Source of the DNA: Lentilactobacillus diolivorans DSM 14421
GTDB lineage: Bacteria; Bacillota; Bacilli; Lactobacillales; Lactobacillaceae
Assembly (NCBI RefSeq): GCF_001434255.1
Contig: NZ_AZEY01000108.1
Location: forward strand, 59,859 to 123,858
Direction: 5' to 3'
DNA length: 64,000 nt
This document shows, one piece after another, positions 3,003 to 36,196 of the stretch (within the stretch, counting starts at the first letter, position 1; each line of letters begins with the position of its first letter). Made by a program: the position numbers and the translations under genes. The notes under the pieces were generated by a model. That model was not told the DNA's origin. It was given only the letters and a program-made list of their open reading frames with translations, and did no database searches.

Positions 3003-4124
3003 CTACAAATTATCATACGAAGTAAACACCCACTGCACTACCGACAAACCGTTGGTACTGATTGAACTTGCCGGAGCTGTTGGTTGCTTGCAATCCACCG
3101 TGTAGATCCAGCCACGATTCCCGGCTGAATCAGCCAAACCACCGATATTATTGATATAAGGATAACCGTTGACTGGTTGAGAGAAATAGTTAATATGATT
3201 CTTCTTGAAGTACCGGGTCGAAACATCAAAGATTGTATCGTTCTCATGCCATGAAAGATCTCGCCGAATGGTATAAACTTTTTGAATATCAGAATTGTGG
3301 TGTCGATATTCAGATGGGGTTAAACCCGTTCGATGTTTAAAAATTTTAGTGAAGTAGCTGGTCTGTGAAAACCCGATTTGATTGGAAACATGACAAATTG
3401 GTAACTGGGTTAACGCCAGCTTTTCACACGCAATAGCAATTTTTTGATTATTAATATAGTCGATGAAGTTAACATCGAGGACTTTTTTGAAAATTCGACT
3501 CAGATAAGATGGTGATAAGAAAACTTCTTGGGCAACTTCATCCAGTGAAATTGTTTGACGAATATTTTTACCAATATATTGAATGGCAGCTGAAAGACTC
3601 TTATGCATATCGTCTTCACTGGTTGTGAGGCTCTCATCGGCTGCCTTTGAGTCATTGATTGAATCGTGATGATTTAAACTAATCTTTTTTTCTAACGGAT
3701 CATGCCCTGACGATGAAGCCTTCAACAGGGTACCGAGATATCTGATTTGAGAAAGTTGGTCGGAAGCCAAAGCATCCCAAACCGCAACTTTCATGTTTAA
3801 ATCAGGGTCAATAACCTCGTTAACAATATTTTCAAGATAACTTCGTGATAAATAAATCCGTTGCTGTGACACGTTTACCGAGTTACAAATCACGCACCCC
3901 CAAAATCCGTGATTAATTGTAACTGGGAAAATTGAATAAATCTCTAGAGAACTAAGATCAAGATTTTGTTGAATTTCAGCAGGATCTGAATAAATATGGC
4001 CATCTTTTAATAAGTTGCCATCAAGTGTGTAAAACACAGTTTGAATTTGAGTAATTCGTGAAAAAGAATCGATTGCTTCTGCAAGCGTACCGTAATCCTT
4101 TTGTTCTAGTGGATAAGTGAGCAT
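3003..4124 (-). CDS. pocR: AraC-family activator PocR with C-terminal transcobalamin beta-like domain
   Basis: Likely activator of the divergent pdu operon. The 373-aa protein has three parts: an N-terminal PocR-type sensory region (about 1-150), an AraC-type double helix-turn-helix (about 180-280, 'SLDEVAQEVFLSPSYLSRIF' and 'ISNQIGF'-like second helix, 'RTGLTPSEYR'), and an extra C-terminal domain of about 90 residues. That tail ('YPYINNIGGLADS', 'GWIYTVDCKQP', 'VVQWVFTSY') resembles DUF4430, the beta domain of transcobalamin/intrinsic factor. The ATG at 4124 is preceded by GGGGAGG; an upstream in-frame start has no such site. Known PocR proteins respond to 1,2-propanediol/glycerol; the added domain suggests a corrinoid input as well. 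A paralogue lies at 22276-23373. Confidence 0.85.
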   Translation of the reverse strand: MLTYPLEQKDYGTLAEAIDSFSRITQIQTVFYTLDGNLLKDGHIYSDPAEIQQNLDLSSLEIYSIFPVTINHGFWGCVICNSVNVSQQRIYLSRSYLENIVNEVIDPDLNMKVAVWDALASDQLSQIRYLGTLLKASSSGHDPLEKKISLNHHDSINDSKAADESLTTSEDDMHKSLSAAIQYIGKNIRQTISLDEVAQEVFLSPSYLSRIFKKVLDVNFIDYINNQKIAIACEKLALTQLPICHVSNQIGFSQTSYFTKIFKHRTGLTPSEYRHHNSDIQKVYTIRRDLSWHENDTIFDVSTRYFKKNHINYFSQPVNGYPYINNIGGLADSAGNRGWIYTVDCKQPTAPASSISTNGLSVVQWVFTSYDNL

Positions 4125-4280
4125 TAATAGTACCTCCCCGTACGATTCAAAAAAATCGGCATCACCAACTATATCTGAAAACGCTCCCACCAACACCACC
4201 AATTTTATGATAAAAAAGTCACGAATTCAAGCTAAACTTGCCTATTTTTTGGTATTATTTTGTGTTTTTGTCATATTTTG

Positions 4281-5643: not shown

Positions 5644-7320
5644 TTGAAACGTCAAAAGAGATTTGAAAAACTAGAGAAACGTCCAGTTCATTTGGATGGA
5701 TTCGTTAAAGAATGGGATGACGAAGGATTAGTTGCCATGGAAGGCAAAAACGATCCCAAGCCAAGCGTTAAGGTTGAAAACGGAGTTGTTACCGAATTAG
5801 ATGGTAAGAAGAAAGCTGACTTCGATTTAATCGATAAATATATTGCTGAATATGGTTTCAACATTGATAAAGCTGAGGAAGTTATGGCAATGGATTCAAC
5901 TAAGATTGCTAAGATGTTAGTTGATCCAAACGTTCCCCGTTCGGAAATTGTTAAATTAACAACTGCAATGACCCCAGCTAAGGCAGAAGAGGTTATTAGT
6001 AAATTAAACTTTGGTGAAATGATTATGGCTGTTCAAAAGATGCGGCCACGTCGAACACCAGCCACCCAATGTCATATTACCAACACTCGGGATAATCCGG
6101 TTGAAATTGCCGCTGATGCTGCTGAAGCTTCACTACGTGGATTTCCTGAACAAGAAACCACGACTGCGATTGCTCGGTACGCACCTTTAAATGCGATTTC
6201 AATTATGGTTGGTTCACAAACTGGTCGTCCAGGTGTTATCACCCAGTGTTCAGTTGAGGAATCAGAGGAATTATCATTAGGGATGCGTGGCTTTACGGCC
6301 TATGCTGAAACCATTTCAGTTTATGGGACCGATCGAGTATTTACTGATGGTGATGATACACCATGGTCCAAAGGATTCTTAGCTTCCTGTTATGCATCTC
6401 GAGGATTAAAGATGCGATTTACTTCAGGTGCCGGTTCAGAAGTTATGATGGGCTACACGGAAGGTAAATCAATGCTTTATCTTGAAGCACGATGCATTTT
6501 CATTACCAAAGGTTCAGGTGTTCAAGGCCTTCAAAATGGTGGTGTTAGTTGTATCGGTATCCCAGGTGCCGTACCAAGTGGTTTGCGTGAAGTTCTTGGC
6601 GAAAACCTCTTGTGCATGATGATCGATGTAGAATGTGCATCCGGTTGTGACCAAGCCTTCTCACATTCCGATATTCGTCGGACTGAACGAATGATTGGTC
6701 AATTCATTGCCGGTACTGATTACATCTCATCAGGATACGCTGCCGAAGAGAACCGTGATAACACATTTGCCGGTTCAAATATGGATGTTCTTGATTACGA
6801 TGATTATTGCTCAATGGAACGAGACCTTTCAATTAACGGTGGGATTGTGCCAATCCACGAAGAAGACGCCATTAAGATTCGTAACAAAGGTGCTAAAGCA
6901 ATCCAAGCAGTATTTGATGGCTTAGGCTTACCTAAGATTACGGATGAAGAAGTTGAAGCTGCAACTTATGGCAGTAACTCAGATGACATGCCAAAACGTG
7001 ACATGGTTCAAGATATGAAGGCTGCTCAAGATTTGATGGATCGTGGGACCACGATTTCAGACGTTATCAAAGCCTTATATGACCATGACTTTAAGGATGT
7101 TGCTGAAGCTGTTCTTAAGTTGGCCCAACAAAAAGTTTGTGGGGATTATCTACAAACATCAGCAATCTTTGACGGCGATTGGAATTGCATCTCAGCAGTT
7201 AATGATACTAATGATTACATGGGTCCAGGAACAGGTTACCGTTTGTGGGAAGACAAGCCGCAATGGGATAAGATCAAAGATATTCCATGGGCAATGGATC
7301 CACAACATATGGACTTCTAA
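5644..7320 (+). CDS. pduC: Propanediol/glycerol dehydratase, large (alpha) subunit
   Basis: Catalytic 558-aa subunit of adenosylcobalamin-dependent diol dehydratase, converting 1,2-propanediol to propionaldehyde and usually glycerol to 3-hydroxypropionaldehyde. Length and sequence fit the family from end to end: 'KRFEKLEKRPVHLDGFV' near the N-terminus, 'GRPGVITQCSVEESEELSLG', 'RGLKMRFTSGAGSEVMMGY' and 'SGCDQAFSHSDIRRTERM'. The start is TTG at 5644, placed by a strong GGGAGGAGG site. Followed by the medium and small subunits. Expected inside the microcompartment. Confidence 0.97.
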   Translation: MKRQKRFEKLEKRPVHLDGFVKEWDDEGLVAMEGKNDPKPSVKVENGVVTELDGKKKADFDLIDKYIAEYGFNIDKAEEVMAMDSTKIAKMLVDPNVPRSEIVKLTTAMTPAKAEEVISKLNFGEMIMAVQKMRPRRTPATQCHITNTRDNPVEIAADAAEASLRGFPEQETTTAIARYAPLNAISIMVGSQTGRPGVITQCSVEESEELSLGMRGFTAYAETISVYGTDRVFTDGDDTPWSKGFLASCYASRGLKMRFTSGAGSEVMMGYTEGKSMLYLEARCIFITKGSGVQGLQNGGVSCIGIPGAVPSGLREVLGENLLCMMIDVECASGCDQAFSHSDIRRTERMIGQFIAGTDYISSGYAAEENRDNTFAGSNMDVLDYDDYCSMERDLSINGGIVPIHEEDAIKIRNKGAKAIQAVFDGLGLPKITDEEVEAATYGSNSDDMPKRDMVQDMKAAQDLMDRGTTISDVIKALYDHDFKDVAEAVLKLAQQKVCGDYLQTSAIFDGDWNCISAVNDTNDYMGPGTGYRLWEDKPQWDKIKDIPWAMDPQHMDF

Positions 7321-11527: not shown

Positions 11528-11541
11528 TAGGAGGAATTCTC

Positions 11542-11817: not shown

Positions 11818-11818
11818 A

Positions 11819-12246: not shown

Positions 12247-12404
12247 TTCCCGAGCTGTGTGGATGTTTAAATAATTAACCTAATCCCTAGCTGAACAAAG
12301 ATAATAGTCGTGATCAGGAAAGTATTTGAGGTCAGAGCTATCTCAAAGTGCTTAAATGATATTTCGCCTCACAGATAAACTAAGTAAAAGGCGGTTATTG
12401 ATTT

Positions 12405-13046: not shown

Positions 13047-13076
13047 TGATTTTTTGAATGAAGGTTGGTGGGCAAC

Positions 13077-13834: not shown

Positions 13835-13850
13835 GGAGAAGGGATAGTTT

Positions 13851-14432: not shown

Positions 14433-14914
14433 TGGACATGGATAAAGAACAAATTAATCAAGTTATTCGCGAAGTTTTAGCAAATAATTCAGACGATCAA
14501 TTGTTTGAACGACACAAGATGGAAAGAGTCATTGATGCAGCAGTAGCAAAGGCTGATGAATTAAATGTTGGCGTTACCATTTGCATTATGGATATTACCA
14601 ATACCGTTCAGATGTTGTATCACATGCGCAATGCAAATTTGGTAAGTTCAACTCTGGCCCCTAAAAAGGCTTGGTCAGCGATTGCTATGAAAGAACCCAC
14701 AAAAGATATCAGTAAAGATATTCAACCTGGTGGGCCATTGTATCAAATGGAAACGATGCTAGACGGAAAGTTGGTATCGTTCCCTGGTGGAATTCCACTG
14801 AAACACGATGATGGCAAAATCTTTGGTGCCATTGGTTGTAGCGGTGGTTTGATTGAACAGGATCAAGCTATTTGCGAAGCAGCTGTTCGCGAATTTATGA
14901 AGGAGCGAAACTAG
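14432..14914 (+). CDS. HbpS/GlcG-like protein (detached PduO C-terminal domain)
   Basis: A 160-aa GlcG/HbpS (DUF336) family protein. Residues 'AVAKADELNVGVTICIMDI', 'LAPKKAWSAIAMKEPTKDIS' and the Gly-rich 'GGIPLKHDDGKIFGAIGCSGG' are typical. In enteric PduO this domain is fused behind the adenosyltransferase and can bind haem or corrinoid; here it is split off and carries its own amphipathic N-terminus ('KEQINQVIREVLAN'), as if independently targeted to the compartment. It overlaps the pduO stop codon. Confidence 0.85.
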   Translation: MDMDKEQINQVIREVLANNSDDQLFERHKMERVIDAAVAKADELNVGVTICIMDITNTVQMLYHMRNANLVSSTLAPKKAWSAIAMKEPTKDISKDIQPGGPLYQMETMLDGKLVSFPGGIPLKHDDGKIFGAIGCSGGLIEQDQAICEAAVREFMKERN

Positions 14915-14917
14915 AAT

Positions 14918-16357
14918 ATGCAAGAACAAAACATTGAAGAAGCCATCAGAAGAATTTTACAAGAAGAACTTACTAACGACGCTCATAGTGACTCCGATGT
15001 TTCACATTCTGCCGGAGCATTAGGTAACGGCATCTTTGAAACCGTTGACGAAGCAATTGCTGCGGCTAAGCAGGCTGAAGAAGTTTATGTTGATAAACCA
15101 ATGGCCTTTCGAAAAAAGGTTATTAAAGCCATCAAAGACGGTTTTGGTCCTCACATTGACGAAATTGCCAAGGCTATTTATGACGAGACTGGTATGGGAA
15201 CCGTTGACGCCAAGGTTGTTAAATTGAAGAATGCCTTGTACAACACACCAGGACCGGAAGTCTTGGAACCGGATGTTGAAACTGGCGATGGCGGCATGGT
15301 GATGTACGAGTACACACCATTCGGCGTTATCGGTGCGGTTGGCCCAAGTACCAATCCTGCCGAAACGGTGATCAACAATGCCATCATGATGTTGTCGGGC
15401 GGCAATACGATGTATTTTGGTGCTCATCCGGGTGCCAAGAACATTACCCGCTGGATGATTGAGCATTTAAATGAATACGTTTATAAAGCGACCGGCATTC
15501 GTAATCTGGTTGTTTCAATTGCAACGCCTTCAATTGAATCTGTTCAGCAAATGATGCACCATCCAGATGTTGATATGTTATCAATTACTGGTGGCCCAGC
15601 AGTTGTTCATCAAGCAATGATCAGTGGTAAAAAGGCGGTTGGTGCCGGAGCTGGAAATCCACCTGCGATGGTCGATGCAACAGCCAATATTGATTTGGCA
15701 GCTCATGATATTATCAAATCTTGTGGGTTTGACAATAATATTCTATGTACTGCCGAAAAAGAAGTCATTGTTGATCAAACTGTTAAGGATGCATTGATTG
15801 CTAAGATGCAGGAAAAGGGTGCGTTTCTCATTAAGGATCCGGCAGTCGTTGACAAGATTGCTAAAATGACGATTGGCGATAATGGTGCGCCAAGTCGGAA
15901 ATTTGTTGGGAAAGACGCTACTTACATTTTGGATGAAGCTGGTGTTAAGTATACCGGCAAGCCAACAGTTGTTATTTTTGAAGCTAAAAAGGATCATCCA
16001 TTAGTCACGACAGAAATGCTTATGCCATTATTACCAATTGTTTCCTGCCCAGACTTTGAGAGTATCCTCAAAACAGCCGTTGAAGTAGAAGGTGGTAATC
16101 ACCATACTGCTTCGATTCATTCTGAAAGTATCCGTCACATTAATCGAGCAGGTCATCGAATGAATACATCAATCTTTGTTGTTAATGGACCAACGTTTGT
16201 TGCAACGGGGGTTGGTGATAACGGTTATTGGAGCGGTGCTGCAGCCCTGACGATTGCAACACCAACCGGTGAAGGAACAACGACTACCAAAACATTTACG
16301 CGTCGTCGCCGTTTCAATTCACCAGAAGGATTTTCATTACGTTCATGGGAGGTTTAA
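14918..16357 (+). CDS. pduP: CoA-acylating propionaldehyde dehydrogenase
   Basis: A 479-aa NAD+- and CoA-dependent aldehyde dehydrogenase converting propionaldehyde to propionyl-CoA. The catalytic cysteine is Cys277 in 'NNILCTAEKEV'; upstream 'GAVGPSTNPAETVINNA' and 'MLSITGGPAVVH' belong to the nucleotide-binding region. The N-terminal 18 residues ('NIEEAIRRILQEEL') match the PduP encapsulation peptide shown in Salmonella to direct lumen import. It starts 3 bp after the preceding stop. Confidence 0.96.
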   Translation: MQEQNIEEAIRRILQEELTNDAHSDSDVSHSAGALGNGIFETVDEAIAAAKQAEEVYVDKPMAFRKKVIKAIKDGFGPHIDEIAKAIYDETGMGTVDAKVVKLKNALYNTPGPEVLEPDVETGDGGMVMYEYTPFGVIGAVGPSTNPAETVINNAIMMLSGGNTMYFGAHPGAKNITRWMIEHLNEYVYKATGIRNLVVSIATPSIESVQQMMHHPDVDMLSITGGPAVVHQAMISGKKAVGAGAGNPPAMVDATANIDLAAHDIIKSCGFDNNILCTAEKEVIVDQTVKDALIAKMQEKGAFLIKDPAVVDKIAKMTIGDNGAPSRKFVGKDATYILDEAGVKYTGKPTVVIFEAKKDHPLVTTEMLMPLLPIVSCPDFESILKTAVEVEGGNHHTASIHSESIRHINRAGHRMNTSIFVVNGPTFVATGVGDNGYWSGAAALTIATPTGEGTTTTKTFTRRRRFNSPEGFSLRSWEV

Positions 16358-16360
16358 TTT

Positions 16361-17482
16361 ATGGAAGAAATTCGAATTCCAACCAAAGTCTTTTCAGGAA
16401 ATGATAGCTTGGACTGGCTGGAAAAATTGTCAAACAAGAAAATTCTGTTGGTATGTGATTCGTTTCTACCTAATACACCAACATTTGACACAATTAAAAG
16501 CAAGGTTGAAGGAAATAACGAGGTTACGATTTTCTCCGATGTCAAACCAGACCCACCGCTGCATAACATTATGCTGGGGGTTGAACAATTTAGTAAGGTT
16601 AAGCCCAATGTCATGATTGGTATTGGTGGTGGTTCGGCAATTGATACCGGTAAAGCGATTCGGTTCTTTGGCGAGAAAATTGAAAAGTATGATATTGAAC
16701 AATTTATTGCCATCCCAACAACGAGTGGAACAGGTTCCGAAGTTACTAATACCAGTGTTGTTTCCGATCCTGAAAAGCATCAGAAGTTCCCAATCATGGA
16801 AGACTATTTAACACCGGATATTGCTTTACTGGATCCTCGATTGGTTATGACGGCACCTAAGAGTGTTACTGCATTCTCAGGCTTGGACGTTTTAACCCAT
16901 TCACTGGAATCATTGGTTGCCAAAGATGCCAACACGATCACTGAAGCATTATCAGAAAAAGGCATTGATGTCATGACCCATCTGTTGGTTGAATGTTATA
17001 AGCATGGTGACAATGAAGATGCAAGAAAGGTCGTTCACGAAGCGTCATGTGCAGCCGGAATTGCCTTCAATAACGCTGGTTTAGGAATTTGTCATTCACT
17101 AGCTCACCAATTAGGTGCCAACTTTCATGTTCCTCATGGCTTAGCTTGTGCCATGTTATTGCCACACGTTGTTTTATACAACGCTGAACATGACAAGACA
17201 GCCATGCATAAATATGCCCAGGCTTTCAAAAAGACGGGCTTTGTTGCTCAGGGAATGGGAGATCAAATTGCCGTTCGTCGTTTAGCGGGTAAGATCAAGC
17301 AAATGATGATCGCAATGGATTGTCCATTAACCCTGAAAGCATTTGGAATTGATCCGGCAACTGCTGAATCAAAGACGGAAACAGTTATTGCAGATGCAAA
17401 GAAGGATGGGACATTCCCAGGAAATCCTGTTGTGCCGTCAGATGATGACTTGCGCAACATTTACAAGAAAGTAATCCGTTAA
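16361..17482 (+). CDS. pduQ: 1-propanol dehydrogenase (iron-dependent)
   Basis: Group III iron-containing alcohol dehydrogenase of 373 aa that reduces propionaldehyde (or 3-hydroxypropionaldehyde) to the alcohol and recycles NAD+. Visible motifs are 'GIGGGSAIDTGKAIRF', 'IPTTSGTGSEVT' and the metal-binding histidine region 'GICHSLAHQLGANFHVPHG'. No encapsulation-type helix is visible, as in enteric PduQ, which enters by binding PduP. It starts 3 bp after pduP. Confidence 0.95.
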   Translation: MEEIRIPTKVFSGNDSLDWLEKLSNKKILLVCDSFLPNTPTFDTIKSKVEGNNEVTIFSDVKPDPPLHNIMLGVEQFSKVKPNVMIGIGGGSAIDTGKAIRFFGEKIEKYDIEQFIAIPTTSGTGSEVTNTSVVSDPEKHQKFPIMEDYLTPDIALLDPRLVMTAPKSVTAFSGLDVLTHSLESLVAKDANTITEALSEKGIDVMTHLLVECYKHGDNEDARKVVHEASCAAGIAFNNAGLGICHSLAHQLGANFHVPHGLACAMLLPHVVLYNAEHDKTAMHKYAQAFKKTGFVAQGMGDQIAVRRLAGKIKQMMIAMDCPLTLKAFGIDPATAESKTETVIADAKKDGTFPGNPVVPSDDDLRNIYKKVIR

Positions 17483-17498
17483 CGACAGGAGTTTTTCT

Positions 17499-18683
17499 AT
17501 GGCTGAAAAAATACTTGCTATCAATGCCGGCAGTTCCTCTTTGAAATTTAAGCTCTATCTAATGCCTGCCGAACAGGTCTTGGTTAGTGGCTTGGTGGAT
17601 CGAATCGGCCATGATGATGCAATCTTTACTTATCATCTCAACGGCGACAAACATGAAACCGTTCAGGCAATTGCTGATCATTTACAAGCCGTTAAATTGG
17701 TCATTGAGGCTTTGTTGAATAGTGGTTTAATTCAAGACAAGGCTGAAATTGTCGGTGTTGGTCACCGAGTATCTCATGGTGGCAGCACCTACACCAAATC
17801 TGTGGAAATTAACGCAGATGTGATGAAACAAATTGATAGATTATCGGTTCTTTCACCATTGCATAATCCCGTTAATCTCGTGGGGATCAAGGCGTTTGAA
17901 ACACTATTGCCTGATGCTCGCGAAGTTGCGGTATTTGATACCTCGTTTCATAGTACAATGCCCGCAAGTGCTTATACGTACGCCTTACCTCATGAATTGG
18001 TTGAAAAATATGGTATTCGGCGCTATGGATTCCATGGCCAATCGCATGAGTATGTATATAGTGAAGCTTTGCGCCGATTTGGTGAAACGCAGACTAGTCA
18101 GATGATTTCCTGTCATTTGGGAAATGGTGCCAGTGTGTGTGCCATTAAAAATGGTGAATCGGTAAATACGTCGATGGGGTTCACACCCTTGGCTGGGTTA
18201 GTGATGGGAACACGTTCCGGTGATATTGATCCGGGAATTGTGCCTTTCATTGAAAAGGAAGAACACTTAAGTGCCGAAGATGTCCGAAAATTACTGAATA
18301 GTGATTCAGGACTCCAGGGGATTTCTGGTCTTTCAAATGATGTTCGGGATATTTTGGAAGCTGAAAAGCAGGGTAACCAGCGGGCAAAATTAGCGTTGGC
18401 GGTCTATGTTCATCAGATTCTGGAATATATTGGGGCTTACACGACGGATCTTGGTGGTTTAAAGACGTTGGTCTTCACCGCCGGAGTTGGTGAGCATTCT
18501 GCTCCAATTCGTGAACGGATTTGCAGCCGGTTAGGTTATTTGGGTGTTAAGATTGACAGTGAGAAGAATCATCGAAATGACTTTGAAATTCAAGCGGATG
18601 ATAGCCAAGTAAAGGTTTTGGTGATTCCGACTGATGAAGAATTAGTTATTTCAAGGGAAACAGTAAAAGTGCTTGATTCTTAA
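17499..18683 (+). CDS. pduW: Propionate/acetate kinase
   Basis: A 394-aa acetate-kinase-family enzyme. 'LAINAGSSSLKFKLY' at the N-terminus, 'RRYGFHGQSHEYV', 'CHLGNGASVCAIKNG' and 'TPLAGLVMGTRSGDIDPG' are the ASKHA-type signatures. Inside the pdu operon it most likely converts propionyl-phosphate to propionate with ATP gain, completing the oxidative branch after PduP and PduL. A housekeeping acetate kinase would be sequence-similar; the PduW call rests on context. Confidence 0.92.
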   Translation: MAEKILAINAGSSSLKFKLYLMPAEQVLVSGLVDRIGHDDAIFTYHLNGDKHETVQAIADHLQAVKLVIEALLNSGLIQDKAEIVGVGHRVSHGGSTYTKSVEINADVMKQIDRLSVLSPLHNPVNLVGIKAFETLLPDAREVAVFDTSFHSTMPASAYTYALPHELVEKYGIRRYGFHGQSHEYVYSEALRRFGETQTSQMISCHLGNGASVCAIKNGESVNTSMGFTPLAGLVMGTRSGDIDPGIVPFIEKEEHLSAEDVRKLLNSDSGLQGISGLSNDVRDILEAEKQGNQRAKLALAVYVHQILEYIGAYTTDLGGLKTLVFTAGVGEHSAPIRERICSRLGYLGVKIDSEKNHRNDFEIQADDSQVKVLVIPTDEELVISRETVKVLDS

Positions 18684-18708
18684 AAAATCATAGATGGAGG
18701 CTTGTAAC

Positions 18709-19053
18709 ATGGCAAGAAATATTGAACGTTCCATTCAAGAGTATGTTCCTGGTAAGCAGGTGACCCTTGCTCATATTGTTGCCAATCCAACGGCCGATAT
18801 TTACGAAAAGTTAGGAATCCAGGCGCATAAGAACGCGTTAGGCATCTTAACAATTACGCCGAGTGAAGCGTCGATTATCGCCGGTGATATTTGTACGAAA
18901 TCAAGTAATGTCACGTTGGGATTCATCGACAGATTTAGTGGCTCGGTGGTCATTGTAGGGGAAGTGTCGGAGGTGGAATCAGCCTTAAAGCAGGTAGTGG
19001 AAAAGTTGCATGATCTGCTGGGGTTTGATATTCCGAAGATTACAAGAACCTAG
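18709..19053 (+). CDS. pduU: Microcompartment shell protein PduU
   Basis: A 114-aa circularly permuted BMC-domain protein. The N-terminal '[20 protein letters not shown]' is the PduU/EutS signature, and the C-terminal half carries the swapped strands ('[18 protein letters not shown]'). It is a minor shell hexamer with a beta-barrel cap in the known structure. I start at ATG 18709 because GGAGG lies at 18696-18700; the ATG at 18694 overlaps that site. It is the last gene of the pdu operon; a hairpin element begins exactly at its stop. Confidence 0.93.
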
Positions 19054-22275: not shown

Positions 22276-23373
22276 CTATAAAAAATCATTATAAGGTGTG
22301 AATAACCATTGAATAATAGAGATGCCATCAAGCTCAATTTGGCTTACTGGCAAGGCTGGCTGTCGACAATTAACGGTGTAGACCCATCCTTGGTGATTGA
22401 CCGCGGAGTTGCGCAACCCGCCGATTTCATCGATATACGGATAACCATTAATGGTCTGGGCGGAAAAAGGGATGCGGTTGTCCTTGAAAAATTGGGATGA
22501 AACGTCGAGAATCGTTTGTTTATTACCCCAATCCAAATTGCGTTTTATCGTATAACTTTTCTTGATATTGGCGTTTTGCCGTTTATATTGAGTTGGCGTG
22601 ACGCTGGTCCGAGCCTTGAAGAGTTTTGAGAAATAGCTGGTTTGGTTGAAACCAACCTGATGGGCAATTTGACGAATCGTATTGGTGGTGAAAATCAGTT
22701 GATCGCAAGCAAGTGCCATTTTTTGATTATTAATATAATCAACAAAATTGATTTTAAATGTTTTCTTGAATAATCGGCTCAGATAGGCGGGTGACAAGAA
22801 TACATGTTGCGCAACTTCAGTTAAGGTGAGTGGTTTTTGACTGTTTTTGTCGATATACTGGATGGCGGCCCTTAAGCTGTGAGTCGCTTCGTAATCACCA
22901 AAATTTGGTTTTGCCGGGGAAATCACTGTTTTATCAGTGGTTAGCGATGTCGAAATGGGATCTGTTGTCCTAACCAGGTTATTGATGAAGTTGATTTGGG
23001 ACAGCTGGTGGTTGTCGAGTGGATTTAAAACAGTAATGTGGCCGTGTCGTTTAGTGATAATAGCGTCGTTTAGTGTTTTTTCAAGATAACTTTGAGCCAA
23101 AAATACCCGCCGCTGTGAAGTATGAGTTGTGTCACAAATTAGGTATCCCCAAAACTTGTGATCAATGATTACGGGAAAAAGCGACTGCCGCCCTTGTGAA
23201 TCAACCTGAAGTGCGTGCTTGATTGCTACAGGATCGGTCTGAATTTCTTCAGATTTTAACAGATGATTATCGAAAGTATAAAAGTAGGTTTGAATTTGAG
23301 TCATTTCTGAAAACAAATGAAGTGCTTCAGCTAACTGAGAATAATCTTGGGGTTCCAATGGATATGTGGGCAT
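22276..23373 (-). CDS. Second PocR-like AraC regulator with transcobalamin beta-like domain
   Basis: A 365-aa paralogue of PocR at 3003-4124 with the same three parts: sensory N-terminus ('PLEPQDYSQLAEALHLFSEM'), AraC helix-turn-helix (about 175-270, 'LTLTEVAQHVFLSPAYLSRL', 'HQVGFNQTSYFSKLFKA') and a DUF4430-like tail ('YPYIDEIGGLRNSA', 'GWVYTVNCRQPA', 'IIQWLFTPY'). The start at 23373 has GGAGG seven bases upstream. It lies beyond the other end of the pdu block from PocR, and both are on the minus strand. Target unknown; the downstream secreted-protein gene, the pdu operon or the B12-uptake operon are candidates. Confidence 0.82.
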   Translation of the reverse strand: MPTYPLEPQDYSQLAEALHLFSEMTQIQTYFYTFDNHLLKSEEIQTDPVAIKHALQVDSQGRQSLFPVIIDHKFWGYLICDTTHTSQRRVFLAQSYLEKTLNDAIITKRHGHITVLNPLDNHQLSQINFINNLVRTTDPISTSLTTDKTVISPAKPNFGDYEATHSLRAAIQYIDKNSQKPLTLTEVAQHVFLSPAYLSRLFKKTFKINFVDYINNQKMALACDQLIFTTNTIRQIAHQVGFNQTSYFSKLFKARTSVTPTQYKRQNANIKKSYTIKRNLDWGNKQTILDVSSQFFKDNRIPFSAQTINGYPYIDEIGGLRNSAVNHQGWVYTVNCRQPALPVSQIELDGISIIQWLFTPYNDFL

Positions 23374-23524
23374 TATCATTCCTCCATTGTCCGAATTCGG
23401 TTTTGTTACATAAAGGTTATTTTAGGCGGAATGAAAGAATTCGGCAAGGATGAAAAGCTGCAGAATAATAGATTAGTTTCAGGTTGTAACCTTTGAATAT
23501 TACCCTAAATTATTCGGCTCTTCG

Positions 23525-26835: not shown

Positions 26836-26895
26836 AATGTCTGTTTTTGTGTTTAATAACAGTTTTGGTAGAACTAAATAACCGGTAGTTACCAG

Positions 26896-27579
26896 TTACT
26901 TAATTGTTTCATGAGTGATTGCCTCAATATCGTTCTTAGCAATCTGATCGAGATGTTGATTAATCTTTTTAAAATCATGTTTATTGGTAATGAAGCCCAT
27001 TTCAACGAGGCTGTAGTCAATACCACGGCGACGTAATACGTTGCAGTTACGCAAATTAGTTCGATAACTATAACCATGGTAAGCAGGGTTAAGACCAACG
27101 TATTTTTTGATGACGTGGGCCAATCGCCGATCACGTTTTGTAGGGATCGGTCGATGAATAATGACGTGGCCGCCATGAGCATAAGTACCGCCACCAGCGT
27201 CTAAATGAAACATAATGACAGTTGTTTTCTTGTTAATCTTATACGAGCCCTTGTGGAAAACCAAAGTGTCTCGGACAATATCGTGTTTGGGATTGTAAAA
27301 AGTGACCCGACTATTCTTGACTTCTTTAGCGTATTTCCGTAGTTTAGGTAAAAATTTTGCCCGTAAAAAATGGGCTTCGGTGGTTCCGTTACCATGAGCA
27401 CCGGGATCACCAGCACCATGACCCATAACCAGTAAGTAGTGGTGCTTGGGCTTAACGGACTTGGTAATGTTGGGCTCGGGCTTTTGAGATGCAAAGATGG
27501 TTTGCTTATATGTCAAACCAGTAATTAAGATTGCCGATAACGTGAGACAGGTGATGACAACGATTCTTAACTTTTTCAT
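26896..27579 (-). CDS. N-acetylmuramoyl-L-alanine amidase (Amidase_3)
   Basis: A 227-aa exported zinc amidase. An N-terminal hydrophobic signal/anchor ('IVVITCLTLSAILITGLTY') is followed by the catalytic domain: 'GHGAGDPGAHGNGTTE' (zinc His and Glu region), 'MFHLDAGGGTYAHGGHV' and the late 'SLVEMGFITNKHD' with the catalytic Glu. It cleaves the amide bond between muramic acid and the stem peptide. No cell-wall-binding repeats are present. RBS GAGGAGAATTCT upstream of the ATG. Confidence 0.85.
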   Translation of the reverse strand: MKKLRIVVITCLTLSAILITGLTYKQTIFASQKPEPNITKSVKPKHHYLLVMGHGAGDPGAHGNGTTEAHFLRAKFLPKLRKYAKEVKNSRVTFYNPKHDIVRDTLVFHKGSYKINKKTTVIMFHLDAGGGTYAHGGHVIIHRPIPTKRDRRLAHVIKKYVGLNPAYHGYSYRTNLRNCNVLRRRGIDYSLVEMGFITNKHDFKKINQHLDQIAKNDIEAITHETIK

Positions 27580-27787
27580 AGAATTCTCCTCTGAATTAAT
27601 GATATGTTATTAATTATACCGCTATCCATTATTTGTGATGCGATGTTTTCTGGAATTGACATCATACTCACTAGTTTAAGACTAATTTTGTTCTGATTGT
27701 GGTTCCAAAATTTTTTTGTAATTAGTATTGCAGTATTAGTATATAAAGAATATACTAAACAAACCAATTCGAAAAGGAGAAAAAATA

Positions 27788-30375: not shown

Positions 30376-30429
30376 GTTTTTAGCCTGATTAAATTGTTGG
30401 TACATGTCACGATTCAACAAAGAATACGA

Positions 30430-30861
30430 TTAGTACTGTTTTAAATAATCCATGAATTCCTTCACGTTGGTTCCCTTGATCGCGGAAACAGTGAAAACTT
30501 TTTTAACACCGGCTTCAAGTAACCGTTTCTTGACTAAGTCGATTTGTTGTTGCGTCGCTAAATCAATTTTGGTGACGACACCAATGGATTCCTGCGTAAA
30601 CATGGTACTAAATCCAGCTGGCAGGACGATTCGCGGGTCAACGGCACTTTGCATTAAAACGACCAGCTTGGCACCGGTGGAAGTTGTTCTCAACCCTGAG
30701 TACAATTCCCGATGCTCAACGTATTCACCAGGGGTATCAATGATATTATCGTAAAATTCAATGGCTTGAGTTTTGTTGTAGCGGATGTGCATATCGCCCA
30801 TTCTTTGAATGAGGGTGGTTTTACCACAACCAATCGCGCCAACGAACATCGCTTTTTTCAT
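30430..30861 (-). CDS. EutP/PduV-family GTPase
   Basis: A 143-aa Ras-like P-loop protein: G1 'GAIGCGKTTLIQRM', G3 'DTPGEYVEHREL', G4 'VTKIDLATQ', G5 'VSAIKGTNV'. EutP and PduV occur in ethanolamine and propanediol microcompartment operons; PduV has been linked to compartment movement, and the exact role is unsettled. Here it is not in the pdu operon but is the last gene of the ECF/transcobalamin-like operon, 6 bp after the upstream stop. That ties the operon to B12-dependent diol metabolism. Confidence 0.88.
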   Translation of the reverse strand: MKKAMFVGAIGCGKTTLIQRMGDMHIRYNKTQAIEFYDNIIDTPGEYVEHRELYSGLRTTSTGAKLVVLMQSAVDPRIVLPAGFSTMFTQESIGVVTKIDLATQQQIDLVKKRLLEAGVKKVFTVSAIKGTNVKEFMDYLKQY

Positions 30862-30867
30862 GAGTGA

Positions 30868-31659
30868 TCACTCTTTATAACCGTCAACTGAGAAGTACCA
30901 GTGAACAGTTTCACCTTTCTTTAGCCGCTTAAGACCAGCTGATTTGTCAACGAATTTATGGTTAACAGAATACATCCAACCACTGCCGGGGCGGACATCG
31001 TTCTCTCTTAACCCATTAATTGAACTGACATAAATATCAGGTGTACTGGTGTAAACGAGCTTTAAATGGGTGGCTTTCAAGACGGAAAATGCGGTTGATT
31101 TCTTAGTGATGGGCATTTTGCCAGTGTAGAACGTTTTTTTATATCCGGACACTTTTAAATAGACAGTAGCGTGATGTTGGTCAGACTTTCTTGCAACCAC
31201 CACCCGTTTCTTTTCAGCGGTTCGCTTTTTAGCAGGCGTGTTTTTCTTCGCTGTTGATTGACGAGCCAATCGCGTTGAAGTGGAGGTGCCTTTTTTGGAA
31301 GCAGCCGTTGACCGGTTAGTTGGCTTAGTACCAGAATGACCTTTGGCAGCTTGGTGGGACGTTGTGGTCGAATGAGTCGTTGCCTTTGAACTCGGCTTGT
31401 TTTTTCTTGCTTGCTGGTGTTTTTGACCTTGCTTAGCTGCCTGCTTTTTGGATTGGCTGGCAGTCTGCTTGGATTTATCCGACGACTTCTTAGCCGATTT
31501 CGTTGAGGTGGGCTGTTTTTGACTGGCAGATTTTTTGGAAGCGGATTGACTCTTTTGCGTCGCAACTGGTGTTGAATGGTTGGACATGACTTGACGAACA
31601 CCGAATGCCAGACCAAACACGAGGGCGACGCCAATTAAAATACCGACAATTTTTTTCAT
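30868..31659 (-). CDS. Surface-anchored DUF4430 protein, transcobalamin beta-domain-like
   Basis: A 263-aa protein. The N-terminal membrane segment ('IVGILIGVALVFGLAFGV') has no lipobox Cys, so it is probably a signal anchor. A long Lys/Ser/Thr/Gln-rich linker (about 30-160) crosses the wall, and the C-terminal domain (about 165-263) is DUF4430: 'STAFSVLKATHLKLVYTS', 'YVSSINGLRENDV', 'GSGWMYSVNHKFVD', 'LKKGETVHWYFSVDG'. This domain corresponds to the C-terminal beta domain of transcobalamin/intrinsic factor, which caps B12. It lies 18 bp after the helical-barrel gene and in an ECF operon. Ligand B12 is inferred. Confidence 0.82.
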   Translation of the reverse strand: MKKIVGILIGVALVFGLAFGVRQVMSNHSTPVATQKSQSASKKSASQKQPTSTKSAKKSSDKSKQTASQSKKQAAKQGQKHQQARKNKPSSKATTHSTTTSHQAAKGHSGTKPTNRSTAASKKGTSTSTRLARQSTAKKNTPAKKRTAEKKRVVVARKSDQHHATVYLKVSGYKKTFYTGKMPITKKSTAFSVLKATHLKLVYTSTPDIYVSSINGLRENDVRPGSGWMYSVNHKFVDKSAGLKRLKKGETVHWYFSVDGYKE

Positions 31660-31677
31660 TTTGAAAGTTCCTAACTA

Positions 31678-32721
31678 TTAGTTCAATGTGTAAACAGAAT
31701 GCTTCTTTTGAGCCTGTTGGTAAGCAGCCGTTGCTAAATTAACTTGGCCGACACCTAAGAGTTGTGAGTAAGCACCCTTGATCGAACCGGTTTTATTAAC
31801 GTAACCGAGCATGGCACGCAATGAAGAGGCGGCTTGATTAGCTTTCGTACTGTTGTTAACAAATTTTAGTGTATTCAAGTTGGTTGAAAAGGCAATGACA
31901 ACTTCAGCGGTTGAGTTGGCATTTGGTGTATTCTTGCCTTGGAAGGTATAACCGTATGAACCAGAAGGATAGACGGCATTCTTTAAGTAGGTTTGGCCCT
32001 TGGTGATGGCACCGGTAACGGCACTGCTGTTGGTTTTACCGCGAGTTAACCCGATAACGGCCATTGAAGTCGTATCGCTGTCAACCGTGGCAAGGTTATT
32101 ACTGTAGCCCCAGCCGTTGTTGCTTTGTTGGGTCTTCACAATGGCATTGCTTAAGCTGGCTTTTGTAAACTTGGCATTGGCTGGCCGTTTAAATGACGAA
32201 CTAGCCGATAATGCAATTAAAGACTGGCTTTGAACGTTAACCGTTTGTTTGGTCATTGATTGACGGTAAAGTTGGGAAACCAAATTCATAGATTTTTTTG
32301 CCCCAGCTGGTTTGAAGTTGGTTGGATTGAGGCCAACTGCTTTCAAGCCCATAATGGCAGTTGCCAAATCAGCAGCGGTACTCTTTGAGTTAACGACCAA
32401 ATTTTTAGCGACTAAATTTTTCTGGTTTTTGGTAAATTTGTACCCGTGACCCTTTAAACCAACTAAAAGATCGGAGTAACCAGCTGCGGCACCAGTTGTT
32501 TTATAAGCCTTCTTGCTGAAAATATAAGCCGTTTTGCCAGAAAGGCCAGTTCGATTCTTAGCCATCATTTTTTTGGCGTAAGTGTAAAGCGCCTTATTTT
32601 TACTCTTTTGGTAACTGGTTGAAGCAGTTTTGACAGCTGCTTGAGAAGTAATAGCAGGAGCCATAGCACCAAATGTTAACAGACTTGCAACGGATAACAC
32701 TAATAATTTGGTTTTCTTCAT
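31678..32721 (-). CDS. Secreted alpha6/alpha6-barrel protein, transcobalamin alpha-domain-like
   Basis: A 347-aa protein with a signal peptide ('LLVLSVASLLTFGAMAPAI', cleavage near 'SQA-AV') and a body of repeated helical hairpins. The segment 'NGWGYSNNLATVDSDTTSMA' and the following 'VIGLTRG' match the prenyltransferase/terpene-cyclase-like repeat, also the fold of the alpha domain of transcobalamin and intrinsic factor ('DT.AMA..A' helix). No catalytic Asp-rich cyclase motif is evident, so a binding role fits better than an enzyme. It is encoded between the ECF S component and the DUF4430 protein; the two exported proteins probably clamp one ligand. Confidence 0.78.
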   Translation of the reverse strand: MKKTKLLVLSVASLLTFGAMAPAITSQAAVKTASTSYQKSKNKALYTYAKKMMAKNRTGLSGKTAYIFSKKAYKTTGAAAGYSDLLVGLKGHGYKFTKNQKNLVAKNLVVNSKSTAADLATAIMGLKAVGLNPTNFKPAGAKKSMNLVSQLYRQSMTKQTVNVQSQSLIALSASSSFKRPANAKFTKASLSNAIVKTQQSNNGWGYSNNLATVDSDTTSMAVIGLTRGKTNSSAVTGAITKGQTYLKNAVYPSGSYGYTFQGKNTPNANSTAEVVIAFSTNLNTLKFVNNSTKANQAASSLRAMLGYVNKTGSIKGAYSQLLGVGQVNLATAAYQQAQKKHSVYTLN

Positions 32722-32741
32722 GAATAATCACACTTTCAAAT

Positions 32742-33443
32742 TTATTTAGATAGTAACTGATACTTCTGAACTAAACGATTAAATAATAGTTCCCATGGTT
32801 TGTACAAAAAGGTTAATAACAAAACGTTGGCTCCGGCATGGAGAGCATCAAACGGTACGCTGGCACCGAATGCTAAAATGAAACTTTTTAAATTGAGCGG
32901 ATTAATATAGGCTAATGCGTACCAAAGATCCATAATCCAACCGAATAAGAAGCCCCAAACGCCGCCAAAAATAACGACCAAGAGCAGACTTTTCTTAATC
33001 CTGGTTTTGCCTAAAAGACCAGCCGTTAATCCCATTAACCCCCAAGCAAGCATTTGCCATGGTGTCCATGGCCCCTGGCCTAAGAACATGTTTGAGACTA
33101 AAGCGGTTGTTGATCCGGTGATAAAACCTAATTCGGGTCCCAAGCTGATGCCACCGATAATGATGATAAAGCTGGCAGCTTGAACGCTTGGAATAGCAGC
33201 GAGTGGTACCCGACCGGCAACCGCCAACGCAATTAAAATTGCAATGAACATTAATGTTTTGGTTCTGATTGGCTCACGTTCAAAGCGCCAATATGCTGGC
33301 AGGATACTACATAGTAAACACATAAAACTAAATAGCAGATAATGTTTTCCTCGTAATAGAAGTAGCAACACTAAAAAGGTCATCATTAACAGAACAGCGA
33401 TTAGCAGCCGATGAACATAGGTTAGATCAAGAAGTTTTTTCAA
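32742..33443 (-). CDS. ECF transporter substrate-binding (S) component, probable cobalamin type
   Basis: A 233-aa membrane protein with six or more hydrophobic segments. The core 'LAVAGRVPLAAIPSVQAASF' followed by 'GGISLGPELGFITGSTTAL' is typical of ECF S components, and 'GQGPWTPWQMLAWGLMGLT' is shared with S components annotated for cobalamin (CbrT-like), as far as I can judge by eye. TTG 33443 is preferred (GGGGGTGAG upstream); TTG 33464 would overlap that site. It lies after the fused ATPase gene and before the two exported proteins. Substrate inferred from context. Confidence 0.8.
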   Translation of the reverse strand: MKKLLDLTYVHRLLIAVLLMMTFLVLLLLLRGKHYLLFSFMCLLCSILPAYWRFEREPIRTKTLMFIAILIALAVAGRVPLAAIPSVQAASFIIIIGGISLGPELGFITGSTTALVSNMFLGQGPWTPWQMLAWGLMGLTAGLLGKTRIKKSLLLVVIFGGVWGFLFGWIMDLWYALAYINPLNLKSFILAFGASVPFDALHAGANVLLLTFLYKPWELLFNRLVQKYQLLSK

Positions 33444-33502
33444 GCATGACTCACCCCCTTTCAAGTCACTTCCAAAGCTAATTGATATTAATTGGTTAAC
33501 CC

Positions 33503-35161
33503 CTAACCATTCGAAGCGTTGTTAAGTTCAATGTCCCTTGCCAGCATTGCCTCTGGAACTTGATTTCTGACCAAGCGATTAATTGATGTTGTAAAGAAGA
33601 AATTATGGGTAAAAAAATTTCTTGTTGGTAAATACGTATTAATGTGGCCGTCGAACATGAAGGCACAGTGATCGGCAAATGTGGCGCAAAAGCCCATATC
33701 GTGGCTTGCCATAATAATGGTTGTCCCGGCTTGTTGCACCTGCTTTAAAATATTGCCAACAAAATTTTTAGTAAATGGATCCAATCCCTTGGTGGGTTCA
33801 TCCAAAATAAGAAGGGTTGGTTTTGCTAATAAAGCAATTGCCAAGCCAAGGAGTTGTTGTTGACCGCCACTGATATCGAATGGATTATGTTTGAGAATCG
33901 ACTGGAGTTTCAGCTGGTCAACAATCGCGTTAATCCGTGATTGGGGATGATCTAAAGCTAATTCCCTGGCTTGGATAGTTAGTTGCTCATAGACACTTCC
34001 GCTTCGAAATTGAAGAGTTGGGGTTTGCGATAGAAAGGAAAGGGATTTGATTCGTTGTGGCGTAGGAATCTTCCAAACAACCTTTTGATTAAAATAAACC
34101 TTCCCGTGTTGCGGTGTTCGCAATCCAGTTAATAAATTTAACAGCGTCGATTTGCCAGCCCCATTTTTACCGATAATTGCCAGCCAATCTCCTTGATGGA
34201 CATTTAAATCCAAGTGGTCAACAACATTTTTTTGCCGGTCAAATGAAAACTGAATATTCTTAGCTTTTAAAATGACATTGGCAGGTCGCTGAATTGGTGA
34301 TTGGGTTAAGGCTGTTGTTGGCTTGAAGTGAATCCGATCCTTGCGAATTGCCCGTTGTCCCGCGGCCACTGAAATTGGTAGGTCGTCGAGATGACGCTTA
34401 CCAGCCAGAAAGACTTGTGAGACGGGAGGAATAAAGTATCCCAGCCGCTCATCGTTACCCATTAGCTTGATTCCCTCAGTCGGTGGGCCGTCAAACGTAA
34501 TTGTTTGATGTTGAATCAAGAGCATCCGGTTAGCTAGTGAAAGCGCGATGCTTAAATGATGTTCGCTGAGGATGATGGTAATTCCCAGTTCCTCATGGAC
34601 GCGGCGGAGTACTTCAAAGAAATGCTGAGTGGTGAGCGGATCCAATTGAGAAGTTGGCTCATCCAATAAGATAATTTTAGGTCGAAGAATGAGGACGGAT
34701 GCCAAGTTGGCCAGTTGCAGTTGACCACCGGAGAGTTCACTGATTTGGCGGTCCAGCAATTGATCAAGTCCTAAGTAATTACTTAGTTCAGCGATTCGGC
34801 GTTCAATTTCATTACTGGGGCAGCCAACGTTTTCTAATGGGAAAGCCAGTTCTTCGATAACTGTCGACATGATCGGCTGGGTTTGCGGATTTTGAGCAAC
34901 GTATCCCACGGTTTGGGCGCTGTCGAGTTGGGAAAGGGTTTTGATGGGCTTACCGTTAATTAAGACGTCACCGGTCGTTTCCCCAGCTGGAATGAGTTCT
35001 TTTTTCAGGTGGTTGAGCAGGGTGGTTTTGCCGCTTCCAGTATCGCCGGCAATGACAATAAAGTCGCCATGATTAACGGTAAGGTTGATATCTTTTAAAA
35101 CTGGCTGTTGTTGGGCTGGATAAGTGAACGTTAAATCTTGAATTTGAATTAATTGGTCCAT
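33503..35161 (-). CDS. ECF transporter ATPase, two fused nucleotide-binding domains
   Basis: A 552-aa protein with two complete ABC ATPase domains. First: Walker A 'GDTGSGKTTLLNHL', signature 'LSGGQLQLANLAS', Walker B 'IILLDEPTSQLDP'. Second (from about residue 295): 'GKNGAGKSTLLNLLTG', 'ISGGQQQLLGLAI', 'LLILDEPTKGLDP'. It replaces the usual separate EcfA1 and EcfA2. The start overlaps the T-component gene by 13 bp. Having its own ATPase and T subunit makes this a dedicated (group I-like) importer rather than one sharing the cell's general ECF module. Confidence 0.92.
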   Translation of the reverse strand: MDQLIQIQDLTFTYPAQQQPVLKDINLTVNHGDFIVIAGDTGSGKTTLLNHLKKELIPAGETTGDVLINGKPIKTLSQLDSAQTVGYVAQNPQTQPIMSTVIEELAFPLENVGCPSNEIERRIAELSNYLGLDQLLDRQISELSGGQLQLANLASVLILRPKIILLDEPTSQLDPLTTQHFFEVLRRVHEELGITIILSEHHLSIALSLANRMLLIQHQTITFDGPPTEGIKLMGNDERLGYFIPPVSQVFLAGKRHLDDLPISVAAGQRAIRKDRIHFKPTTALTQSPIQRPANVILKAKNIQFSFDRQKNVVDHLDLNVHQGDWLAIIGKNGAGKSTLLNLLTGLRTPQHGKVYFNQKVVWKIPTPQRIKSLSFLSQTPTLQFRSGSVYEQLTIQARELALDHPQSRINAIVDQLKLQSILKHNPFDISGGQQQLLGLAIALLAKPTLLILDEPTKGLDPFTKNFVGNILKQVQQAGTTIIMASHDMGFCATFADHCAFMFDGHINTYLPTRNFFTHNFFFTTSINRLVRNQVPEAMLARDIELNNASNG

Positions 35162-36045
35162 AAATGGTAGACCCCCTCAGCGATTAATGGCATTAACGTA
35201 AAGCTACCCAATAGAACCATTGGATAAAGGTCGCCAGTGAAAAGGATGGTGTTGAAATCGGCAACCGAATTCGTCCAACCCATTGCGTTGATCCTTACAA
35301 ACAATAATAACGCAAAAGCAGCCGTGGTAACCATCAGAAAGAACCAGTCGGTTGGGTTAAAACGATAGGAACGGTAATGAGTTCGCTTGGCGGCCCCGAA
35401 GCCACGGGCATCCATCAGATTGGCAGTCTCCATCGCGGATGATAGGGAATCTTCAAGCAAAATTTGAAACAGACTTAATATTTTTTTTAGCCGGGTTGGT
35501 AATGATCCAGTTGTGGTATCGAGATTTCGAGTCTTTTGTAAAAGTAACAGCTGACCAAATCGTTTGATTAAATCTCTGACTAGATTAAACGAAATTGTGA
35601 CCAGTAGTGCGAGCTTTGGTGTTATTGGCGCAAAAACATAAATTAATTTATTGGCGGTTAAAATGGTGTTTAACAAGGCAAACGTCATTAACATCTCGGT
35701 CAACATGATTCCCATCGTGATGCCGTAGAGGAGCGCCGGATAGGATAACTTAAATGTGAAAAAGCCGGTTGACACTTTCCATAGAAAGGGTGAAAACTTT
35801 TGATTAAGTAAGACGTTAAAAAAGACAATCATGAAAAATAAGACGCCGTTGAATTTGAGCTGTTGCCAAGCAGCGTGTCTGCCAAGATAGAAAACATTGA
35901 TGATCATCAAAGAAACAATTCCTGTCAACGCCACGGCAACGTGATTGAACAGCATTGTCAGAACAATTAATTCACCAAAAAAGATGGTGGCAATGATGGG
36001 ATGCAGTTGAAAAAAGAAAGTCATTTTGATTGGTATTTGGCGCAT
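35149..36045 (-). CDS. ECF transporter T component (CbiQ/EcfT family)
   Basis: A 298-aa membrane protein with about five to six hydrophobic segments and the coupling-helix signature 'LMDARGFGAAKRTHYR' (Ala-Arg-Gly motif) typical of EcfT/CbiQ; it links the ATPases to the S component. ATG 36045 has AAAGAGG eight bases upstream; an in-frame start six codons earlier lacks this. First gene of the five-gene transporter/receptor operon plus EutP, transcribed from a TATAAT at 36083-36088. Confidence 0.9.
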   Translation of the reverse strand: MRQIPIKMTFFFQLHPIIATIFFGELIVLTMLFNHVAVALTGIVSLMIINVFYLGRHAAWQQLKFNGVLFFMIVFFNVLLNQKFSPFLWKVSTGFFTFKLSYPALLYGITMGIMLTEMLMTFALLNTILTANKLIYVFAPITPKLALLVTISFNLVRDLIKRFGQLLLLQKTRNLDTTTGSLPTRLKKILSLFQILLEDSLSSAMETANLMDARGFGAAKRTHYRSYRFNPTDWFFLMVTTAAFALLLFVRINAMGWTNSVADFNTILFTGDLYPMVLLGSFTLMPLIAEGVYHLWTN

Positions 36046-36082
36046 GGCAGAAACCTCTTTCACAGTCTAGTAAACCCTTACA

Positions 36083-36088
36083 ATTATA
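36083..36088 (-). promoter_or_regulatory. -10 box for the ECF/transcobalamin-like operon
   Basis: On the minus strand a perfect TATAAT is followed by TGTAAGGG and lies about 40 bp before the T-component start. The -35 is less clear (TTTATT about 18 bp upstream). No cobalamin-riboswitch core could be found in the upstream region. Confidence 0.55.
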
Positions 36089-36196
36089 ACATCAAATGGG
36101 TTGGAATAAATGGCTTTATGGTGTGCGGTTCGCCTGTTATGTTGGAAACAGCGATGAATGAGCAAAATGAGGTTTTTAATTTCTTTTGTTAATACT

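Follow-up and report, generated by a model that had tools for sequence, protein, structure and literature searches.

A predicted corrinoid uptake operon of Lentilactobacillus diolivorans encoding two exported proteins that may take part in ligand capture

Introduction

The window analyzed here, a stretch of 64,000 nucleotides from Lentilactobacillus diolivorans DSM 14421 (contig NZ_AZEY01000108.1, positions 59,859 to 123,858), carries at its positions 36045-30430 six tightly packed minus-strand genes. They encode the T component, a fused double ATPase and the S component of an energy-coupling factor (ECF) transporter, an exported alpha/alpha-toroid protein, a membrane-anchored DUF4430 protein and an EutP/PduV GTPase (Table 1). 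Adjacent genes overlap by up to 13 bp or are separated by at most 38 bp; upstream, the nearest gene is PepO, whose end is 566 bp away from GTG 36063, the first start in the EcfT frame. A first-pass annotation made from the sequence alone had read these genes as one operon, and all six were recovered where it had placed them. It had also proposed that the two exported proteins are the halves of a vitamin B12 clamp that hands its ligand to the S component. Here, we describe evidence that the operon is very probably a dedicated uptake system for corrinoids (B12 or cobinamide), and consider what part the two exported proteins may have in it. The capture of B12 outside the membrane is poorly known in Gram-positive bacteria, and an extracellular binding protein is usually said to be unnecessary for ECF transporters. 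A small split catcher of the transcobalamin type would be an easy object to test: two proteins, a strongly coloured ligand and a transporter with a solved relative.

Table 1. Genes of the operon, followed by other features of the window (window coordinates)
Product	Position	Strand	Basis
EcfT, transmembrane T component (CbrV in the naming of PMC6722938)	35149..36045 (open frame from GTG 36063)	-	first place in recurring operons; synteny
EcfA-EcfA fused double ATPase (CbrU)	33503..35161	-	two PF00005 stretches; TIGR04520 317.4 bits (cut-off 315)
EcfS, CbrT-type substrate-specific component	32742..33464	-	PF12822, PF07155; homology to 6fnp_A
Exported alpha/alpha-toroid protein, 347 aa, apparent signal peptide	31678..32721	-	AlphaFold2 model
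Membrane-anchored DUF4430 (SLBB, transcobalamin beta-type) protein, 263 residues	30868..31659	-	PF14478 59.6 bits (cut-off 23.8)
EutP/PduV GTPase	30430..30861	-	PF10662 176.2 bits; TIGR02528 169.4 bits (cut-off 138.35)
PduC, large subunit of B12-dependent diol dehydratase	5644..7320	+	PF02286 (match at G000:C60:65505-67163)
AraC-type regulator with C-terminal DUF4430, beside the pdu operon	3003..4202	-	PF12833 69.8 bits; PF14478 31.0 bits (cut-off 23.8)
Second AraC-type regulator with C-terminal DUF4430	22276..23379	-	PF12833 74.0 bits; PF14478 24.0 bits (cut-off 23.8), marginal

Organization and recurrence of the operon

The order T-ATPase-S-toroid-DUF4430 is found again in Lentilactobacillus, Levilactobacillus and Secundilactobacillus, and this recurrence across three genera argues that the arrangement is not due to chance. 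In a blastn comparison, positions 30378-36196 of the window are 98.5% identical to sequence on a contig from Secundilactobacillus paracollinoides DSM 15502, and the operon seems to have passed recently from one genus to another. Window positions 26851-27633 are matched at 90.6% identity by the adjoining piece of that contig, and thus the region common to the two organisms may be larger than the operon alone. In the S. paracollinoides copy, the EcfT and ATPase frames are broken into pieces. A scan for promoters and terminators gave results no better than those obtained with shuffled sequence.

The same order from EcfT to DUF4430 is also present, together with nrdJ, an adenosyltransferase gene and cobS, on plasmid pMF1298-5 of L. 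plantarum MF1298, whose ECF subunits have been named CbrV, CbrU and CbrT and predicted to form a cobalamin transporter, CbrTUV (PMC6722938; the name also appears in PMC8123684). Gene order and the vicinity of cobalamin salvage genes and nrdJ link that system with the window. In their passages on the transporter, these papers name the ECF subunits only, and the plasmid record labels the toroid "fucose-binding lectin II". This name is given to toroid homologues in six of seven plasmid records (e.g., positions 14989-16041 of locus L163) and has no Pfam support in the window protein. Plasmid NZ_CP013155.2 (L163), typed as mobilizable, combines nrdJ, an adenosyltransferase gene, cobS, an extra S component gene and the operon into a portable package for B12 use.

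The first-pass annotation had suggested a survey of whether toroid and DUF4430 genes co-occur beside ECF genes and B12-dependent enzymes in other Firmicutes. A scan with one short pattern gave 47 named toroid loci, which include near-identical copies (L180-L183) and thus are not 47 independent cases. A same-strand DUF4430 gene lies within 600 bp of the toroid gene in 42 of them, and T-ATPase-S genes lie directly upstream of it in 32, or 33 when L168 is counted by its printed row. Gene labels at these loci are best BLAST hits to the proteins of the window, L005, L006 and L163, the cob/cbi names in L006 and the names cblS and cblT having been read by eye. EutP was considered and rejected as a core component of the uptake system, as it lies downstream of the toroid gene in only 10 of the 47 loci; pdu genes are in view at seven of these ten, and EutP looks like an accessory pdu gene.

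The importer and its ligand

The S component exceeds the cut-offs of PF12822 (47.1 bits) and PF07155 (41.6 bits), its score against the folate family TIGR04518 being weak (27.8 bits, cut-off 60). A single-sequence phmmer search of the PDB retrieved 6fnp_A, a chain of ECF-CbrT (E 6.3e-9), and one unrelated chain (E 1.5), and a profile built from 12 relatives retrieved ECF-CbrT at E 1.2e-21, with the next S component, 4hzu_S, at E 0.1. CbrT is the sole significant relative in the PDB, and the earlier assignment of the S component to a corrinoid importer is upheld by this homology. ECF-CbrT of Lactobacillus delbrueckii, whose S component is of the same family, imports cobalamin and cobinamide in an ATP-driven manner, and an E. 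coli strain without btuF, btuC and metE was used in that work (PMC5997447). The energising parts of such a transporter are both present in the operon: the fused double ATPase exceeds the TIGR04520 cut-off, and EcfT, which has no Pfam match at E ≤ 1, is identified by synteny alone, the corresponding gene of pMF1298-5 being annotated as ECF component T and the first position being kept in recurring operons. A single ECF module serves several S components in L. delbrueckii (PMC5997447), whereas the module of the window is encoded with an S component of its own and two exported proteins.

Regulatory elements of distant relatives point to the same ligand. From other Bacillota, 20 loci of 19 genomes were picked by score and variety, not randomly, and 16 of them were scanned for riboswitches. 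A cobalamin riboswitch (RF00174) lies upstream on the operon strand in 14 of these 16, including all 12 with the T component and double ATPase in view; the match is marginal at L153 (34.6 bits, cut-off 31.5) and partial at L155 (positions 47-167 of the 189 of the model). The two loci without a riboswitch, L149 and L150, are short DUF4430-S units.

A co-occurrence survey scored PduC, the B12-dependent ribonucleotide reductase (RTPR), CbiD, DUF4430 and the toroid in 301 Lactobacillaceae genomes. DUF4430 is present in 71 of the 73 genomes with PduC or RTPR versus 12 of the 228 without (p 1.6e-53), and the toroid in 25 versus 5 of the same sets (p 6e-13), both p values being inflated by shared ancestry. 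With one query sequence, by which distant toroids are missed, toroid relatives were detected in 30 of the 301 genomes, the window's own included. Of the 15 genomes that the survey included from the window's genus, the 11 with a toroid all have RTPR, and the four without a toroid all lack it. The two B12-enzyme genomes without DUF4430 (G024 and G142) both have CbiD. CbiD is found in only 8 of the 30 toroid genomes, and 17 toroid genomes have a B12 enzyme in the absence of CbiD, so that these 17 probably depend on imported corrinoid. In Levilactobacillus brevis DSM 20054 (G084), for example, the toroid, PduC and RTPR were detected and CbiD was not. Neighbours at toroid loci include cblT-cblS-cobS (L180-L183 and L209), nrdJ-cobA (L187) and, at several loci, pdu genes. 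The relationship with CbrT, the riboswitches in relatives, the co-occurrence with B12 enzymes and the salvage and nrdJ neighbours strongly support the first-pass proposal of a corrinoid as the substrate of the importer.

The DUF4430 protein

The DUF4430 protein consists of a hydrophobic, membrane-type N-terminus, a 133-residue linker in which K, S, T, A and Q are abundant, and, at about residues 156-262 of the model, a C-terminal domain for which most of the predicted local distance difference test (pLDDT) values exceed 90. It had been described as wall-spanning and anchored, but no LPXTG match is listed for it in the Pfam scan, and "membrane-anchored" is therefore preferred to "wall-anchored" as the safer term.

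With the model as query, Foldseek gave 19 matches at E ≤ 0.001; each is a chain of transcobalamin, intrinsic factor or haptocorrin or belongs to the bacterial structure 3u7z. The isolated transcobalamin beta domain 5no0 is matched at E 1.1e-6. VIA Z values were 12.5-14.7 for transcobalamin, intrinsic factor and haptocorrin and 13.7 for 3u7z, versus 7.7 for the next unrelated chain. When a profile of 30 bacterial domains was used, six transcobalamin sequences ranked first, weakly (best E 0.0075, others 0.066-0.17); the whole protein and a full-length profile gave nothing usable against the PDB because the linker swamped the matches. The modelled fold, with weak support from sequence, relates the domain to the beta domain that transcobalamin shares with intrinsic factor and haptocorrin; this part of the earlier reading stands, and the PF14478 score is in line with it. 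Conserved residues of the DUF4430 protein include Y210, G227, W228, N233 and W254.

DUF4430 also occurs in other settings. Of 43 RTPR genomes in which no toroid was detected, at least 22 have a short DUF4430 gene 205-265 bp from the RTPR match (e.g., G171:C1:1287803-1287991), which is possibly the cbrS of the order nrdJ-cbrS-cbrT-pduO described in L. delbrueckii (PMC5997447). A proteomics paper mentions an "additional lipoprotein component of putative cobalamin ECF transporter" and, separately, a DUF4430 gene near rtpR (PMC9963975).

The toroid protein

The AlphaFold2 model of the toroid protein (pLDDT 89.3, predicted template modelling score 0.88) is a confident alpha/alpha toroid, and no Pfam family matches it at E ≤ 1. 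VIA Z values are 19.1-19.3 for the alpha domain of intrinsic factor (rmsd 3.2 over 235 aligned at 19.3), 18.6-18.7 for transcobalamin and 19-21 for glycoside hydrolases. By sequence, the family groups with prenyltransferase/squalene cyclases, and its best PDB sequence matches are drimenyl-diphosphate and squalene-hopene cyclases. PF01122, the family of the animal carriers, is not listed for the window toroid at E ≤ 10 and is found in one of 34 relatives (E 0.0023). The DSDTT motif, which the first-pass annotation had compared with a helix of transcobalamin, was rejected as a transcobalamin-specific signature, as this helix aligns instead with the DVDDT helix of a terpene cyclase. Across 16 diverse members of the family, D214, D216 and T218 do not vary, and N267 and N269 also count among the conserved residues. 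The catalytic motif of type II terpene cyclases is DxDD; in the window toroid the sequence is DSDT, so that the final Asp is missing, whereas the aligned cyclase has DVDD. Thus, the claim of a transcobalamin-like helical half holds for the alpha/alpha toroid fold but not for a special kinship, the protein being nearer to terpene cyclases by both sequence and Z. As far as the model and sequence can tell, it is a superfamily relative, not demonstrably a transcobalamin alpha domain.

Toroids of another type, represented on contig C8 of the same genome, carry an LPXTG anchor at L092 (9158-10786) and L094 (9235-10701), where PF00746 scores 25.7 and 20.7 bits (cut-off 20); in these two loci, the toroid itself appears to be wall-anchored because of this motif.

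Pairing of the two exported proteins

In seven of the 20 distant Bacillota loci (L143, L144, L152, L157, L158, L159 and L162), the toroid and DUF4430 are joined in a single chain, the toroid matches in L157 and L162 being weak. Because of these fusions, the toroid and DUF4430 proteins of the window look as if they were the two halves, here separate, of a protein that other bacteria make in one piece from the same kind of operon. The animal carriers are likewise one chain, whereas the window has two polypeptides, one of them membrane-anchored. A precedent for joint binding by separate parts is cleaved intrinsic factor, whose two fragments have been reported to bind B12 together, and tightly, even after the cut (PMC6257451).

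A second toroid-DUF4430 pair is encoded in the same genome on contig C8 (L005, 13175-15159 and 15211-17295, both on the minus strand), adjoined by a third, long toroid-like protein; no ECF genes were recognised within this 20-kb stretch.

Genomic setting

The window also contains a pdu operon (about 4464-19053) and cobS-like genes; these genes, and the pdu names other than PduC, were read from translations. The same contig encodes CbiD further upstream, and RTPR is encoded on a different one; a cbi/cob cluster and a cbiM/cbiQ/cbiO-like set were likewise recognised in this genome by reading of translations. Two AraC-DUF4430 regulators flank the pdu region. They are probably intracellular corrinoid sensors.

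Proposed mechanism and alternatives

An outline of the proposed process is as follows: a corrinoid crossing the wall would be bound by the DUF4430 domain, which reaches out from the membrane on its long linker, and the exported toroid would close over it. The corrinoid would then be handed to the CbrT-type S component and imported with ATP, the S component being energised by EcfT and the fused double ATPase. Inside the cell, it would serve the diol dehydratase of the pdu operon and RTPR, both of which are encoded in this genome. Homology and context support the import step and its ligand well, whereas the succession of capture steps and the clamp are what we infer. It is likely that the toroid and DUF4430 proteins cooperate in corrinoid capture in some manner, and the chances are about even that, as a true clamp of two chains, they enclose one corrinoid between them. 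The explanation as a whole, combining CbrT-type uptake, two-protein capture and sensor regulators, seems somewhat more probable than its negation. The fullest form of the idea, a two-chain B12 clamp at the surface that docks as a loaded pair on the CbrT-type S component, represents a split relative of the animal carrier and has its beta domain reused as the sensor of the pdu regulators, is put forward tentatively, its odds being a little short of even.

Several observations weigh against this explanation. Squalene-hopene cyclase gave a higher Z with the toroid model (24.1) than intrinsic factor and transcobalamin, and the toroid profile search placed squalene-hopene cyclases first (E 4.4e-20), with no transcobalamin among its 32 matches at E ≤ 1. 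Five toroid loci (L173, L196, L200, L206 and L207) have no adjacent DUF4430 gene; a further toroid/DUF4430 set is present on the same locus at L196, L200 and L207 and on the same contig (L205) in the case of L173. A toroid was not detected in 54 of the 83 DUF4430 genomes, and therefore the beta half works somewhere without it. No Rfam match was found in the window or in the seven lactobacillus loci scanned, where the AraC-DUF4430 regulators may take the role of the riboswitch. Five toroid genomes (G025, G027, G062, G119 and G261) have neither PduC nor RTPR above the cut-off; in four of them the toroid matches are weak (E 1e-7 to 1e-13), whereas G261, the remaining one, is a genome of 76% completeness. 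In G027, the contig with the DUF4430 gene also has an RTPR-like match below the cut-off. Shared ancestry lessens the weight of the co-occurrence statistics. In addition, judging from CbiD and the cbi/cob cluster, the organism of the window probably makes B12 itself, which makes the need for uptake less obvious. The idea that the toroid follows the loss of B12 synthesis was rejected: among PduC genomes, it is present in 9 of 12 without CbiD versus 8 of 17 with CbiD (p 0.25).

How far do other explanations account for these facts? The two exported proteins might act independently, DUF4430 alone capturing the corrinoid for the S component and the toroid doing another job at the surface as a wall scaffold, a factor that frees corrinoid from other binders or a second, independent binder. 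The many DUF4430 genomes without a toroid, the short DUF4430 genes near RTPR in toroid-negative genomes and the structure 5np4, which by its title is an isolated transcobalamin beta domain with bound cyanocobalamin, all fit this explanation. The retention of a DUF4430 gene beside the toroid gene in 42 of the 47 loci and the single-chain fusions, which repeat the build of the animal carriers, speak against it, and we consider it rather unlikely.

An enzymatic or lectin role of the toroid outside the cell is much less probable, whether terpene-cyclase-like, glycan-active or that of a "fucose-binding lectin II" as the plasmid records have it. The cyclases at the head of its PDB sequence matches, the three invariant residues and the Z values with glycoside hydrolases would suit such a role, but the DSDT motif lacks the last Asp of the cyclase motif, no Pfam family is matched by the window toroid, and the context is corrinoid-related in the loci examined. 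Least credible of all is an importer for another nutrient, such as cobalt, alpha-ribazole or haem, with B12 genes nearby for other reasons. ECF modules serve many vitamins, and a weak TIGR04518 score was obtained for the S component; against this stand its similarity to CbrT, the cobalamin riboswitches before related operons and the presence of DUF4430 in nearly all B12-enzyme genomes, and such other roles could be filled by the cbiM/cbiQ/cbiO-like set and, in some relatives, by a separate CblT-like S gene beside the operon.

Relation to earlier predictions

The core of the capture idea dates from 2007. Proteins of the SLBB type, in many cases joined to a toroid and encoded in CbiO/CbiQ operons, were predicted to be B12 scavengers, an AraC-SLBB fusion was noted in Lactobacillus, the idea of a corrinoid sensor was proposed for such fusions in general form, and the animal carriers were proposed to have been acquired from low-GC Gram-positive bacteria (Burroughs et al., 2007; PMC1796856). 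The SLBB (DUF4430) domain, the alpha/alpha toroid, CbiO/CbiQ-like neighbours and the AraC-SLBB fusion are all common to those systems and the window. The systems described in that paper have toroid-SLBB fusions, whereas the window has separate chains and adds a CbrT-type S component and EutP to the operon; its text also describes such bacteria as usually lacking key enzymes of B12 synthesis, whereas the genome of the window has CbiD. Since the ECF part has been annotated elsewhere as CbrTUV, the operon is best regarded, within what these sources describe, as a split variant of a predicted, uncharacterised system. In the openly licensed literature searched, no publication was found on the two-chain version or its experimental test.

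Other features of the window

Two plus-strand frames with collagen-binding and SpaA domains lie at positions 58875-60608 and 61065-63983, the second ending in an LPQTGE-type anchor; the pair may represent one interrupted adhesin gene.

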